A stretch of 64,000 nt of DNA, taken from NCBI GenBank assembly GCA_023151275.1, contig JAKLJI010000005.1:1-64000 (forward strand), given 5' to 3'. Position 1 is the first letter of the stretch; every line of letters starts with the position of its first letter. Below, one piece after another: positions 3,154 through 49,545 of this stretch. The stretch comes from Bacteroidia bacterium. GTDB lineage: Bacteria > Bacteroidota > Bacteroidia > UKL13-3. A program made the position numbers and the translations under genes. The notes beneath the pieces were generated by a model that searched no databases, was not told the origin of the DNA, and saw only the letters and a list, made by a program, of their open reading frames with translations.

Positions 3154-3316
3154 AACCCCGTAGGGTTTACATGTTGGTAGATTTGCAATCCTACCTCAAA
3201 TGCTGAAACCCCATAGGTGAAATATTCATCCTTGGAGGCATACACATCCCCCTAAAATTTTTTTTTTGAATTTCTAGGAGGAGCCAGCCAATTGCTAAAA
3301 ATGAAAAGCCATCCGG
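3154..3316 (+). repeat. Dispersed repeat, copy 2 (direct to 215-370)
   Basis: This copy is colinear with 215-370 in the same orientation. The first hairpin here is damaged (AACCCCGTAGGGTTT) and the second has lost part of its right arm, which suggests that this copy is the more decayed one. Confidence 0.7.
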
Positions 3317-36353: not shown

Positions 36354-36602
36354 AACTCGGATTGTGCATTTGAACTTCGTCATGAGGGCCAAAAGGCCAA
36401 AGAAATTGGCAGTTTCACGAGCAAGGCATAATCAACCATTATGGTGAGTGAGGGAAACTGAGTTTACGCCCAATTTCACAGGCATTTTGGGCAGTAATAG
36501 ATGGGCAAATGCATATTCCGGGTTCCAGGGCCTTGCCTAAACGGGGCCATTACAAAAGCATCAGGAAACAAAAAGCAGTTCGGGCCCCATTTAGGCCGGT
36601 GT

Positions 36603-36718
36603 ATCCGCTTGTACTCCGCGTCGCTCGGCTAAGGGTTTTTAGCCTGTAGGCCGGGCTTTCTGCCGGCAGCCGGCCTCCACGCAAAACCCTAAAGCCAAGC
36701 GCCTTGCGGGGTACCGCT
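36603..36718 (+). repeat. Structured GC-rich repeat module, divergent copy
   Basis: This copy shares the flanking motifs ATCCGCTTGTACTCC (36603-36617) and GGGGTACCGCT (36708-36718) with the 142-bp repeats at 44515 and 49008, at nearly the same separation (about 104 bases), but the interior differs. The interior folds into nested hairpins: GGCTAAGGGTTTT against AAAACCCTAAAGCC, and inside it AGGCCGG against CCGGCCT. Confidence 0.65.
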
Positions 36719-36770
36719 GCTCCACCTAAGGCAATTGGCCATGCACCGAAAGCCGGCAACTCCAATGGTA

Positions 36771-37010
36771 GAGCCAAGGCATGACTTGGCTATCGAATCC
36801 CATGGCAATTTCACGCCTTGGCACACAGAAAAGTAACAAAATAGCCCTCCCCTCCAAAGGATAAAGGTTTAGATGGTTTATGAAGGTTTAAGTGGTTTAA
36901 GCGGTAAAACAGGGAAACTGGATAATCACGGATTGCTACCCCCTCATTACTCATTACTCACACTCTTGCAGCTCCCGGCGCCTCCGACAGCGAAAGGTTT
37001 TTGGAAAATT
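36771..37010 (-). repeat. Dispersed repeat, copy 2 of an inverted pair
   Basis: The reverse complement aligns end to end with 523-782. It starts with an imperfect palindrome at 36772-36791 (one substitution from the perfect form at 762-781) and ends with GGTTTTTGGAAAATT. Confidence 0.8.
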
Positions 37011-44403: not shown

Positions 44404-44514
44404 TTAATTGCTACTATTCTACAACAACCCTATTTACTTAAAGTAAAATAAAGAATCCATTACGCAATTATTTCATAAAAAAATTAGGCGAAACATTTCA
44501 GTTGGAATAATAAC

Positions 44515-44656
44515 GCCGGGGGCCAGGTCATCCGCTTGTACTCCTCGCCGGGCAAACTGGCAAACTGTAGTGGCTGTGGTGGCTTCCGGTGGTCGCCTCC
44601 TCGCTCACACAGTTGCCGTTTTCCCGTCTGTGGGGTACCGCTTCTGCCCCTCACGC
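44515..44656 (+). repeat. 142-bp repeat, left copy of a near-identical inverted pair
   Basis: The reverse complement of 49008-49149 matches this stretch with only two mismatches that I can see (AAACTG versus AACCTG, and CCGG versus CCTG). It runs from GCCGGGGGCCAGG to CCCCTCACGC. It contains no ORF with family resemblance. Confidence 0.9.
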
Positions 44657-44731
44657 TTTCATCCCTTAAAACTCACACTCAAATCAAACCTCTCTCCTCC
44701 CTTTTCTAATTACCAATTACTCACCTATTGC

Positions 44732-44755
44732 AGCGCCAAGGTATGCCTTGGCGCT
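44732..44755. repeat. CCAAGG/CCTTGG palindrome copy
   Basis: A 10-bp perfect stem (AGCGCCAAGG / CCTTGGCGCT) has a TATG loop. The core matches the palindromes at 762-781 and 36772-36791, and a decayed relative is visible near 48975-48992, next to the other 142-bp repeat copy. Confidence 0.7.
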
Positions 44756-45005
44756 ATCTCTAAATTACTCAACTTTCTTAGGCAAACAAAGATTCTCAAC
44801 CTACTTTCAATTCCAGAGCACATCCCCACACCTTATTTGCAACCCCAAAAAGGGCGATATACAAGCAAATTCAATACCTAAGTGAATCTTTTCTGCTTAA
44901 ATAAGTCACTACCTGACAACTAATTTTCATTGCAAAAATTCGGCATAAGTGATATTTTAGTACTGGAGTAAGTTAGTTACAAACAAGCTTATTGAACATC
45001 CTACT

Positions 45006-45951
45006 ATGGACATACATGAAGAAGAAATTAGAAAATTCAAAGCAATACTTGACTTTTTGAAACGCCTTGCCGAAAACGGTGTGACTCCGTTAATAGAGAA
45101 ACAAATCCTATTAATGCTTGATGACTGCTTACCCTTCTTTTCTCATTTGACGATGTCACACGTTTTCCCTAAAATACATAGAATAACTGTTAATAGAAAT
45201 GTTTTAGGCTCTAACAAGAGAATTTGCGATATAAATCTTCTCAAATATCCACCAGCGGACAAAGTAAGTAAATATGGACGCTGCAATTTACCCAATCAAT
45301 CTGTTCTTTATGGTTCGATGTTCAACTTGACAAGCATCAATGAAATAAGACCAAAGGTCGGAGATCTGGTAACGCGTTCAATATGGAAGATTACAGCATT
45401 ATGATTCTGGACTTGTTTATTGCCCAATATTTAAGAATCAACCACCCAAACAAAAAGGTGTTGTTAATCCACGATCTTTGGAATTCAATGATATCTATGA
45501 AAAAGAATTAGTTAAATATCCAGTTAATATGAGAGCTCAAATTGATGATTTGGTCCAATTCATAGCAGACGCGTTTACCAAGAGAATTAAGGCGGGACAA
45601 CATTTAGACTATATTTTTAGTGCATATTTCTCGAATAAAATTCTATATGAGTTAGAAAATGGCTCTATTGATGCTATTTATTATCCAAGTGTAAAGGATG
45701 GGCTTACATTTGAGAATCTTGCCATTAAACCACATGTATTTGATAAAACATATTATTTGGCAGAAGTATTTGAAGACTTCGTTGTTCAAGACTTAGAAAG
45801 TGGAGCTGGTGGCTATCTATTTAATGGTATCTCCGACTGCAAATCATTTGACTATGGCTCTGGAAAAATACTGTGGGATAAGGAAAAAATATATCAACCA
45901 GACAGTTTTATGAAACACATTAAGATAGCACATAATGTCGACATCGACTAA
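45006..45951 (+). pseudogene. RES-domain protein gene broken by a frameshift
   Basis: Two overlapping frames together read as one RES-domain protein of about 315 residues. The first (45006-45404) has the N-terminal helical part and the RES motifs FPKIHRITVNR, YPPADKVSKYGRCNLPNQSV, LYGS and IRPKVGDLVTRSIWK, then stops. The second frame (from about 45373) continues with YDSGLVYCPIFKNQPPKQKG and runs to LESGAGGYLF...HNVDID. The switch lies near 45385-45405 and needs a shift of one base. RES proteins of the ParT/MbcT group modify or consume NAD or phosphoribosyl substrates as toxins; this long form often lacks an adjacent antitoxin, and none is seen here. A sequencing error would restore the gene. 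Confidence 0.8.
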
Positions 45952-46030
45952 AGCCAGCCTGTAAGAACGGTCTTGCGCCATTGCCGGTAAGTTAGTTATG
46001 TTCAGCTTTTCGTTCTGCAATAATTCCTAT

Positions 46031-46108
46031 CTTAGTTTGACAAATAATCGTTCCGCAGCAGGTAATAGCGCAAGTCCGAGGAACGTTATCGCCTATTTCA
46101 GACTAAGG
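46031..46108. repeat. Long imperfect hairpin
   Basis: CTTAGTTTGA at the left pairs with TCAGACTAAG at the right with one mismatch, and inside it ATAATCGTTCC pairs with GGAACGTTAT. The loop is about 25 bases. It lies between the RES pseudogene and the next gene. No family was recognised. Confidence 0.5.
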
Positions 46109-46142
46109 GAATTTGTAATAAATCATTTAACAATAAAAAAAT

Positions 46143-46544
46143 ATGGAAGATTTAAGGAAAACATTGAGATTTAATGGAACGGAGAATGCTGAAACATTGC
46201 TCCTTTCTCATGACGAATTTGTTACATTATTAGAAAGTGGAATTGTGGATTATCGACTACTAAAAAGATTTATTCTGGTTTTTTATCGCCTTAATATAGA
46301 TAGATGGAAGCAAATAATTGCTCAAATCTTACTTCTTCTCTTTTGGGGTGGAATTATTTTTGGAAGCTATTTACTGTATCACAAAGAATGGAAATTTGCC
46401 GTGCTTTCATTCGTAGGCGGTTGGACGATTAAACAATGGGTTAATGTGTTTGCGATGCGAGCAATTAAAAAGGGCCTTATTAATGACAAAAAATATTATT
46501 CAGACCTTCTTGAAAATCGAATTATTGGTGTTTATCGAAAATGA
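46143..46544 (+). CDS. Small uncharacterised membrane protein
   Basis: This 133-residue protein has no family I recognise. About 60 polar N-terminal residues are followed by two hydrophobic segments (QIIAQILLLLFWGGIIFGSYLL and WKFAVLSFVGGWTIKQWVNVF) with a short charged turn, then a basic tail ending ENRIIGVYRK. No signal peptide cleavage site is evident. Base composition is AT-rich compared with the housekeeping genes, like the neighbouring RES pseudogene. It appears to be a stand-alone gene of the accessory stretch. Confidence 0.6.
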   Translation: MEDLRKTLRFNGTENAETLLLSHDEFVTLLESGIVDYRLLKRFILVFYRLNIDRWKQIIAQILLLLFWGGIIFGSYLLYHKEWKFAVLSFVGGWTIKQWVNVFAMRAIKKGLINDKKYYSDLLENRIIGVYRK

Positions 46545-47264
46545 AACGATCGAAATAGCATCTTAAAGAAATTGGTGGTTCAGCTCCGCGGACATACTTT
46601 TGGTTAATGTAGATTGGTCCTTCGCAACTATATTTATATTGTAAGCCGACAACTTGTATCTGCAAACTGTGTTTGCCTTGAATCAGCCCTATAGCCAAAA
46701 GGGTTGAATGGTATTTAAAGATGGAGACAAATGATTGAGGGATAAATAAAGTTGTGGAGCTCAATCGAAGTGAGAGGCCATTCTACCTTAACAAGTTTGG
46801 TAGGCCTTCCAAAGATGGCTTTCAAGAGCAGAATTAAAATTACCTGATTCTACAAAATGGGAAACTCTTTTTGTGGTAAACAGCCATCAAGGGATTAGAT
46901 GAAGTATTGGAGGCAGACCAGCTTTTAGTAGTGATGATGAAGTGGAATAGCAATGGAGCCAAGGGCTAGATTAACCAAATAAAATTTATAACAGGAAAGA
47001 ATGTTTGATTATTCAGACGTAAAATTACAACTAAAATTACCAGGATATAATTTCTACCCTGGTAATTGGTAAATCCAAAATGTTAAATACATTTGTGATG
47101 AAACAATAAGAGCCCTTGTCAAATGACGAGGCAAGCCGTTTGAAGGTAGAATTTCTAGCAAGATTCTCCCGCATAAACGGGATCAAAGTGTGGGAGCGTA
47201 AGTGGAAAACTCCCTCATTTCAGCCAATCAGCAGAAATTTTCCCTTCCAATTAAAATTACGACT
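46545..47264. other. Spacer with no supportable gene and a promoter at its right end
   Basis: This ~720-base AT-rich stretch has short, interrupted reading frames and no resemblance to a known gene; it may contain decayed coding sequence. A strong promoter lies at 47066-47095, and the 165 bases after it would form the leader of the next gene. Confidence 0.5.
47066..47095 (+). promoter_or_regulatory. Bacteroidota promoter TTG-N19-TACATTTG
   Basis: TTG at 47066-47068 and a perfect -7 element TACATTTG at 47088-47095 are separated by 19 bases, the best-matching promoter in the accessory stretch. The next gene starts 170 bases downstream, so the leader is long. It holds the small hairpins TCCCG-CATAAA-CGGGA and AGAAT...ATTCT. 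Confidence 0.65.
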
Positions 47265-48251
47265 ATGAGAACATTTTTACTTATTCTAAACGTGTTTTTT
47301 TCGCTTGGCACTTTTGCTCAAAATACCAAGACAAATACGGGCATGAGAAAAACCACAGAAGCTTTGGCCTTCCTGATTGGACAGGAATATTCCTTAAAGG
47401 CAATAGAAAGTAATTTTCCCAAATTAAAATCTGCAATTAATACAGCTGAACTTAATTTCAATTACTCTTTTGGACGCGCTAGAACTAATATTAATAAATT
47501 CTTGCTTAAGCAATGGTCTCAGGAAGAAATAGACAACTTTAAAGAGACTTTAATAAGCAAGGCCTTACAGCCTTCTATTAGTTCATTAACACAAGAAGAG
47601 GCTATTTCATTTATTGAAAATGTAAATCAAAGAGCGAAAGGAGAAATCAATTCCCCAATCCTAGAGACCCTGCTATTTTACCAGTATGTTGATCAACCTG
47701 AAGAAGAATTTATTAGGGGCTATGTTCTTCATTTTAATACAAAAGGACATTCAAAAGCTAAGGGCACTGACTGGACAATTAAAGTACCACTTAGCTGGAC
47801 TTCAATGGAGGCAGATAGACCCAACATAATTAAGAAATTTATTAGTGAAGGTGGTTCTGGAAATGAAACTATCACATTATCGGTAATGGATATTCCTTTA
47901 GAAAAGGGTAAAAAAATATCAAAGACTGAAATTGAGGCGTTTTTCTCTGAAAATGAAATAAGGCAAATGGTTCCGAAAGGTGGAAAGTTAATAAGTTATA
48001 AAAAAATGACTTTTGATCAAATTCAAGGAGGAGCATTAGAGTTTGAGTATAATGCTAAACAGTTAGACTTCAATTTGAAAATTAGAAGCATCTGGTACAT
48101 TTTTATCTATAAGAATAAAATCTACAACGTTCAATGTGGCATTGGTTCAGAAGAGGGAAAAAGAGATTTGGAACTTGATATGCAGAAGTTTGCCCCACTT
48201 TTCAAACTGATAGCAAATTCTATTGTAGTTAACGAAAAGTATAGCAAATGA
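47265..48251 (+). CDS. Uncharacterised secreted protein
   Basis: This 328-residue protein begins with a Sec signal peptide (RTFLLILNVFFSLGTFAQ), so it is likely exported. The mature N-terminal half is helical and Lys/Glu-rich. The C-terminal half (from about 165: GTDWTIKVPLSWTSMEADRPNII ... WYIFIYKNKIYNVQCGIGS) has the look of the PsbP/DUF1795 fold, a domain found in many small exported proteins. The start is the ATG that begins the signal peptide; the frame extends 21 codons upstream without sense. Base composition is AT-rich. Function is unknown. Confidence 0.75.
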   Translation: MRTFLLILNVFFSLGTFAQNTKTNTGMRKTTEALAFLIGQEYSLKAIESNFPKLKSAINTAELNFNYSFGRARTNINKFLLKQWSQEEIDNFKETLISKALQPSISSLTQEEAISFIENVNQRAKGEINSPILETLLFYQYVDQPEEEFIRGYVLHFNTKGHSKAKGTDWTIKVPLSWTSMEADRPNIIKKFISEGGSGNETITLSVMDIPLEKGKKISKTEIEAFFSENEIRQMVPKGGKLISYKKMTFDQIQGGALEFEYNAKQLDFNLKIRSIWYIFIYKNKIYNVQCGIGSEEGKRDLELDMQKFAPLFKLIANSIVVNEKYSK

Positions 48252-48422
48252 AAATGCGACTAAACAAATAAGCCTTAACCAAAGCCCTTCTTCCGGCTTC
48301 GATTTTCCCGAAATACTCTGGAGTGTGAATAAAGCTTTCGGTTTGCTTTCCAGCTTAGTCGCAGAAAAATTTTCTCAATCGGGTTGAATAAGTTTAAGCC
48401 TATCCTATTCATTCTTTTTGCT

Positions 48423-48583
48423 GGGGAGTGTCCAAATAACTGTGTCAAGGGTATTTTTATTTCTTTTTTTGCTAACAAGGGGAACGGAAGGAGTTAGTTA
48501 AGTCGACTGGAGTTAGCACTGGAACAGTATCACAAATAGAATGAAACAATTAACAGTTGACACAGTTTATTGGATACTCCCCC
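48423..48583. mobile_element. 161-bp non-autonomous element with IS256-like ends
   Basis: The two ends (48423-48448 and 48558-48583) are 26-bp inverted repeats that differ at only three positions. Both contain the string AACTGTGTCAA after GTCCAA or ATCCAA, the kind of terminal sequence seen in the IS256 family. The 109-bp interior has no transposase. No clear 8-9 bp target duplication is visible, so it is either an old insertion or a deletion remnant. Confidence 0.65.
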
Positions 48584-48585
48584 CT

Positions 48586-48923
48586 CCCGGCAGTTTCGTT
48601 GCTTGTTCCATGCACCATTGTTCATAGCCGGGGGCACGCCCTTTTGAAGCTTTCTGGAATTGACCGTTTTGTGCTTAGGACTTGCAGATTAAGGCCCAAG
48701 CTGCTGATTGAAAAGAATTTAAATCGTAATGAGAAAATACTTCTGCAAGGCATTGAAACGGTTTTATTGGATTTTAGCGTCTTTAGCCTTGCAGCATGCT
48801 TTCCGATTCGCTAATCCAGCTCCGCTTCATCTTCTTCGGATAAGCCTGGTCGGGTGTATGGAAATACGATATGCCAGAATTATCCTCGAACCGAATGCAG
48901 ATTTGAATTGAACAGCAAATCCT
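48586..48923 (+). repeat. 338-bp direct repeat, copy 1
   Basis: This copy begins CCCGGCAGTTTCGTTGCTTG and ends near GAATTGAACAGCAAATCCT. It aligns with 49144-49480 along its whole length, with an estimated 85-90% identity. It begins 2 bases after the IS256-like element. The reading frames are interrupted. Confidence 0.8.
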
Positions 48924-49007
48924 GATTGGTATTCAAGAATTTTGATTTCTCATCCTTTGGAAAACCGGGTCCAGGGTATGCTTTGGCGCTACAGTACGTT
49001 TTTTTAT

Positions 49008-49149
49008 GCGTGAGGGGCAGAAGCGGTACCCCACAGACGGGAAAACGGCAACTGTGTGAGCGAGGAGGCGACCACAGGAAGCCACCACAGCCACTACAGG
49101 TTGCCAGTTTGCCCGGCGAGGAGTACAAGCGGATGACCTGGCCCCCGGC
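49008..49149 (-). repeat. 142-bp repeat, right copy of a near-identical inverted pair
   Basis: This is the inverted partner of 44515-44656, 4.35 kb away, with two mismatches visible. It runs directly into the second copy of the 338-bp repeat, overlapping it by a few bases. Confidence 0.9.
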
Positions 49150-49480
49150 AGTTTCGTTGCTTGTTCCATGCACCATTGTTCATAGCCGGGGGCACGCCCT
49201 TTTGAAGCTTCCTGGAATTGACCGTTTTGTGCTTAGGGCTTGCTGATTAACGCTCAATTGCTGATTGAAAAGAATTTAAATCGGGGATGGAATATTCTTC
49301 TGCAAGGCTTTGAAACGGTTCCTGTGGATTTTACAGCCTTTGGCCTTGCAGCAATCTTTCCGATTCGCCAATCCGGCTCCGCATCATCTTCTTCAGATAA
49401 GCCAGGTCGGCGGTATGGAAATACGATATGCTAGAATTATCCTCGAATTGAATGCAGATCTGAATTGAACAGCAAGCCCT
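49144..49480 (+). repeat. 338-bp direct repeat, copy 2
   Basis: This second copy is in the same orientation as 48586-48923, with the start points 558 bp apart. Shared blocks include GGCACGCCCTTTTGAAGCTT and GAAATACGATATGC, with scattered substitutions. Confidence 0.8.
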
Positions 49481-49545
49481 AACTATTCAATCAACCCCTC
49501 GCATGCTAAAACCCCGCAGGCTTACAATGCCCTTAGGTTGAGAAT

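Follow-up and report, generated by a model that had tools for sequence, protein, structure and literature searches.

What does a pair of almost identical inverted repeats around an accessory segment stand for: the ends of a mobile unit, a switch, or the trace of a past event? The question is raised by the window analyzed here, 64,000 nucleotides of a Bacteroidia bacterium (contig JAKLJI010000005.1, positions 1 to 64,000). In it, 140 of 142 bases (99%) agree between positions 44515-44656 and the sequence at 49008-49149 read in reverse complement. The two mismatches lie at positions 50 and 74; the arms, of 142 nt each, enclose a spacer of 4351 nt. The similarity is far beyond chance (BLAST E 1e-66), and the next best genomic copy of the arm reaches 86% identity over 126 nt (BLAST). 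An earlier note on this DNA had described 142-bp inverted repeats, nearly identical and far closer to each other than other repeats are, and both statements are borne out. The AT-rich, broken RES-like gene and the two unknown genes that it had placed between the arms are present as well, the RES match being below the cut-off:

45006..45951, plus strand: RES-like gene, frameshifted (frames of 132 aa and 157 aa); Pfam RES E 0.007-0.017, below the curated cut-off
46143..46544, plus strand: unknown gene, open reading frame of 133 aa, no Pfam match
47265..48251, plus strand: unknown gene, open reading frame of 328 aa from ATG, no Pfam match

No mobility gene was recognized in the segment. For the remnant that had been called IS256-like, no copy confirming the label was found; it shows terminal inverted repeats (TIRs) of about 25 bp. 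The flanking genes encode a 2374-aa RCC1/PKD secreted protein with a type IX sorting tail and an 1149-aa conserved protein; of the 25 genomes searched, the source genome included, 24 have the latter.

The 142-base repeats are the 3' part of a folded, non-coding element of about 195 nt and no repeat in their own right. This extent became apparent from additional copies in the source genome; the right arm, beyond what had been noted before, sits within a complete element, designated E1. The window contains a third copy, and the parts are as follows:

49007..49200, minus strand: complete element E1, 194 nt, the highest-scoring match of the covariance model genome-wide (173 bits)
49193-49197 (GCGTG) with 49008-49012 (CACGC), minus strand: closing stem P1 of E1
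49185-49192 with 49142-49149, minus strand: hairpin P2 of E1
49129-49137, minus strand: core of E1, GTCATCCGC
49120-49126 with 49026-49032, minus strand: base of the long arm P3 of E1
49077-49083 (GGCTTCC) with 49067-49073 (GGTCGCC), minus strand: tip motif of E1
44515..44656, plus strand: left arm, an element's 142 nt on the 3' side without the 5' strands of P1 and P2, 99% identical to E1
36527..36733, plus strand: third element copy (128.8 bits)

Folded as a single strand, the element is closed by stem P1; within it lie a variable hairpin, P2, and a long arm, P4/P3, which also varies. Its 5' end, GGGC(N)(T)(N), pairs with the 3' end, (N)(A)(N)GC; a fixed stretch, CCGGGTCATCCGCTTGTACTCC, separates P2 from the long arm, another, CGGGGTACCGCTnCTGCCCCT, follows this arm, and the arm's tip reads GGCTTYCTG..GGTCGCC (or GGCAGCC). 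Among 18 copies aligned with MAFFT, 84.6% of the cells pair, versus 41-51% with the partners slid, and covariation amounts to 0.375 versus 0.135 in shuffles. In 90 copies aligned to the covariance model, an alignment that leans towards the structure, 46 of the 48 pairs show double changes, with a covariation of 0.542 versus 0.149. In both alignments, none of 500 shuffles attains as many compensatory changes, and the slid controls are far lower.

The covariance model finds at least 99 copies (37-173 bits) in the 3.9-Mb genome, a lower bound, as 150 of 343 first-look candidates were scored. The earlier note would have given up its reading on tens of equally similar copies scattered through the genome, and this applies by half: many copies (about 100) do exist, but none comes near the identity of the pair. 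All three genomes of the same genus lack the element. Among other genomes of the family, 13 possess a few shorter copies, as do 14 others in a phylum sample of 198 genomes; one genome of another family (G031) contains long copies with the same tip. The plasmid and phage collections gave no match, and a genome_contigs scan with a 16-base core returned, among the matches listed, mostly chance matches in unrelated phyla.

Within the source genome, the 5' side of the element faces the end of a same-strand gene in 66 of 82 copies, at a median of 39 bp after the stop codon, according to simple ORF calls. Between tandem genes, the element runs along the gene direction 36 times versus 8 times against it (two-sided binomial p 2.5e-5), and a T-rich tract precedes 34 of 90 copies. 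Because 75 Flavobacterium-type copies from four genomes exhibit no orientation bias, the same-strand placement belongs either to this lineage or to the long form.

The known repeat that most bears on this element is the Flavo-1 motif (Rfam RF01705; Weinberg et al. 2010, PMC2864571), which Rfam files as an sRNA. At 16 of 19 loci in other genomes, matches of our element model and of RF01705 coincide, each lying on the strand opposite to the other; 11 of the coinciding RF01705 matches have E<0.05, three are above Rfam's cut-off, and the overlap is restricted to the core. The window copies and 13 other long-copy loci are not matched by RF01705 even at E 10, and the window copies lie below the membership cut-off of 42 bits. 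Elsewhere in the source genome, RF01705 has 11 matches at E<=0.01; Flavobacterium-like genomes, a label inferred from their Flavo-1 content, contain from at least 40 to at least 127 each among the matches listed. Since the tested long copies are unmatched while the cores coincide elsewhere, the element is a long divergent relative of Flavo-1 and no formal member. Both share a core (NNATCCGCT...), a central hairpin, ...CCGCTnCnnnC with complementary ends, and a high copy number in Bacteroidota. Rfam, however, models the other strand and 76 nt only, whereas our element adds P1, P2 and an arm of about 100 nt with a fixed tip motif. The Rfam model appears to cover only part of the conserved structure, perhaps on its reverse strand. 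PYLIS and similar weak Rfam matches in the loci were judged to be chance.

Why one copy of such an element should lie truncated and inverted 4.35 kb from its near twin becomes clearer from the surroundings of the right arm, where a direct repeat (48586-48923 versus 49144-49480), absent from the earlier description, surrounds the element. It belongs to a second unit (48586-48930), colinear with 49144-49486, which consists of a flank and the first 51 nt of an element (E2) and ends at GCCGGG:

49201..49486, minus strand: flank F1, bordering E1 at its 5' end, 85% identical to F2
48643..48930, minus strand: flank F2, the tandem counterpart of F1 by alignment, 85% identical to F1
48592..48642, minus strand: E2 fragment, the 5' 51 nt of the second tandem element by alignment, identical to E1 there
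48584..48591, plus strand: CTCCCGGC, a possible target-site duplication, read from the sequence
48423..48582, no strand: remnant of 160 bp with terminal inverted repeats GGGGAGTRTCCAAWWAACTGTGTCAA (TIR alignment), adjoining the E2 break
44515..48422, no strand: segment of about 3.9 kb, presumably inverted, as suggested by the split element and by the likeness of the DNA that follows each copy

The flank, too, is a dispersed repeat and contains a palindrome (CTGCAAGGC/GCCTTGCAG); it recurs near other element copies at L145 2294-2538 and L167 1368-1555, with 71-76% identity at these two loci.

The left copy starts, with GCCGGGGG, exactly where the second unit stops. Joined together, the 51 nt at 48592-48642 and the 142 nt at 44515-44656 make one element, identical to E1 at 191 of 193 positions with two differences. 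Because the rejoined pieces agree so closely although the flanks F1 and F2 are only 85% identical, we take the left copy to be the missing end of E2. The DNA following the left copy resembles that following E1 (score 17.5, reached by one of 500 shuffles), as a tandem unit predicts, over a short stretch of 29 nt; upstream of the left copy, similarity to the 5' part of the element is no better than in shuffles. At the break itself, CTCCCGGC matches, with one mismatch, the initial 8 bases of the left arm in reverse complement (CCCCCGGC), and this match may possibly represent a target-site duplication from an insertion inside E2. The TIRs of the remnant, about 25 bp long, abut the break, and the sequences on its two outer sides are unlike each other, as a rearrangement would leave them. 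No other copies of the terminal repeat were found in the source genome, in 295 other genomes of the phylum or in viral contigs, and no target duplication is seen at the present left end of the remnant.

From the sequence, we consider it probable that the pair arose when an old inversion, one of whose breaks lies at the 160-bp TIR remnant, split a tandem Flavo-1-like copy. According to this model, a unit of flank and element would have been duplicated in tandem beside the 1149-aa gene; E2 would then have been broken inside P2, probably by a transposable element bounded by TIRs that left an 8-bp target duplication. About 4 kb, from the break to the 3' end of the 2374-aa RCC1/PKD gene, would subsequently have been inverted, bringing the 3' 142 nt of the broken E2 to 44515 in the opposite orientation. 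The inversion proposed in the earlier note is in this sense supported as a past event, and its suggestion of recent duplication or gene conversion gains support: with elements 99% and flanks 85% identical, a simple recent tandem duplication is insufficient and gene conversion must be added. The ancestral order is kept in no relative, so the inversion is unpolarized; in genomes of the same genus other genes follow and adjoin the 1149-aa gene, and synteny there is uninformative. One-ended transposition, considered as the exact mechanism of inversion, was set aside since the duplication expected at the far target is not visible.

Two other origins of the pair have to be weighed against the split element. 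The left copy might be an independent event, either an insertion truncated at its 5' end or an older local element converted by the right copy, with the second unit having lost its 3' part separately. Conversion has probably acted, given the higher identity of the elements than of their flanks, and a match of the covariance model can be extended to cover 44485-44657; yet the 30 nt upstream hold no partner for P1 or P2 and no likeness to the 5' part of the element, and a left copy starting at the very base where the second unit ends, with an 8-base overlap, would by our own estimate be a chance of about 1 in 100. We regard this alternative as rather unlikely. Far more improbable is that the pair acts as a working inversion switch or forms the ends of a mobile unit. 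Inverted repeats of 142 bp are in principle long enough for RecA-dependent inversion, and here they are nearly identical and 4.35 kb apart, but the arms are fragments of a repeat with about 100 copies, one arm is incomplete, and neither a recombinase nor a transposase was recognized in the segment. The former proposal of a recently mobilized unit likewise lacks support: its supposed ends are interior fragments of a high-copy repeat, and the 5' edge common to both arms falls in the middle of the element. Nor does a composite transposon fit, with one incomplete arm and no transposase domain recognized between the arms, and no direct repeat outside the inverted pair is common to its outer flanks. 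The pair is probably the scar of a rearrangement rather than the border of a mobile unit.

The split-element history leaves room for different views of what the family itself is. RNA helices usually accept G-U far better than A-C, and 17 tRNAs behave in this way, with 22 G-T, 4 A-C and 321 Watson-Crick pairs. The corresponding counts for the element in the source genome, taken over well-paired columns with one fixed T-G arm pair left aside, are 54, 66 and 2958. A T-G pair at the base of the long arm (column pair 128-310, alignment A2) is kept in 78 of 90 copies; being kept although other mismatches are rare, it could mark the recognized strand. In the 75 Flavobacterium-type copies, the two wobble/mismatch classes occupy 2 and 18 of 1550 cells and lean to Rfam's strand. 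The wobble counts give no clear RNA reading, as they are symmetric in the source genome and, in the Flavobacterium-type copies, lopsided but rare. In the transcript map of F. psychrophilum (PMC9723704), matches to Flavo-1 occur alike in sense and antisense, many of them outside transcripts. Together, the mismatch pattern and the transcript map tend to favor a constraint or homogenization at the DNA level.

Could the family nevertheless be a functional RNA, for instance one at work in the 3' regions of transcripts? Such a role would apply to the family and does not conflict with the pair having arisen from a split element. The strong covariation, the position of 66 of 82 copies shortly after a same-strand gene and the 18 versus 2 lean of the rare wobbles speak in its favor, but the equal rarity of G-T and A-C in the source genome, unlike in tRNAs, the lack of orientation bias among the Flavobacterium-type copies and the F. 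psychrophilum matches make it doubtful in our view. The family would most likely have spread as a non-autonomous DNA element, recognized in its folded form by a putative enzyme encoded elsewhere; no mobilizing enzyme was identified in this analysis. More tentatively, Flavo-1 and its long relatives may all be folded-DNA repeats copied by a putative Bacteroidota enzyme rather than small RNAs, the form of about 195 nt having reached about 100 sites in this lineage, most of them behind a gene on the same strand.

Two known systems offer comparisons. REPs are imperfect palindromes scattered in many copies between genes, often 3' of them, and the element resembles the REP/RAYT (IS200-like) system in all these respects; it differs in its length of about 90-200 nt and its three-way junction. 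This candidate was rejected, with one weak match in 30 Y1 loci (8 genomes, model R1). The Flavobacterium-type pattern, which recovers 33 of 35 known copies, was found at none of the Y1 transposase loci. To integron attC sites the element is similar in its imperfect hairpins, with structure conserved above sequence, and in its position just after a gene of the same orientation in the source genome; unlike them, it has the extra P2 branch, and its copies are scattered singly, with no cassette arrays. The attC candidate was likewise rejected: the closing stem, GC-N-N / N-N-GC, lacks the RYYYAAC / GTTRRRY boxes (AAC/GTT).

An inverted pair that resembles a scar has thus led to a large repeat family of which Flavo-1 is apparently a partial model. 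About 100 long, alignable copies, absent from the nearest sampled relatives, make the choice between RNA and mobile DNA hairpin testable, and likewise the question of which enzyme moves a Flavo-1-like repeat.

Some further repeats deserve mention. A second inverted pair connects 523-753 and 36776-37010 of the window, 36 kb apart and 79-93% identical in pieces; its right arm sits just after the element copy at 36527-36733. Another repeat, AACCCCGTAGGGGTTACATGTTGGTAGA, occurs as direct copies at 215-278 and 3154-3217 (86%). Finally, one contig of the genome (C26, with L408 and L409; 34,042 bases) consists of two head-to-tail copies of about 17.02 kb, 99.98% identical, and probably represents either a circular molecule that was assembled twice or a dimer.
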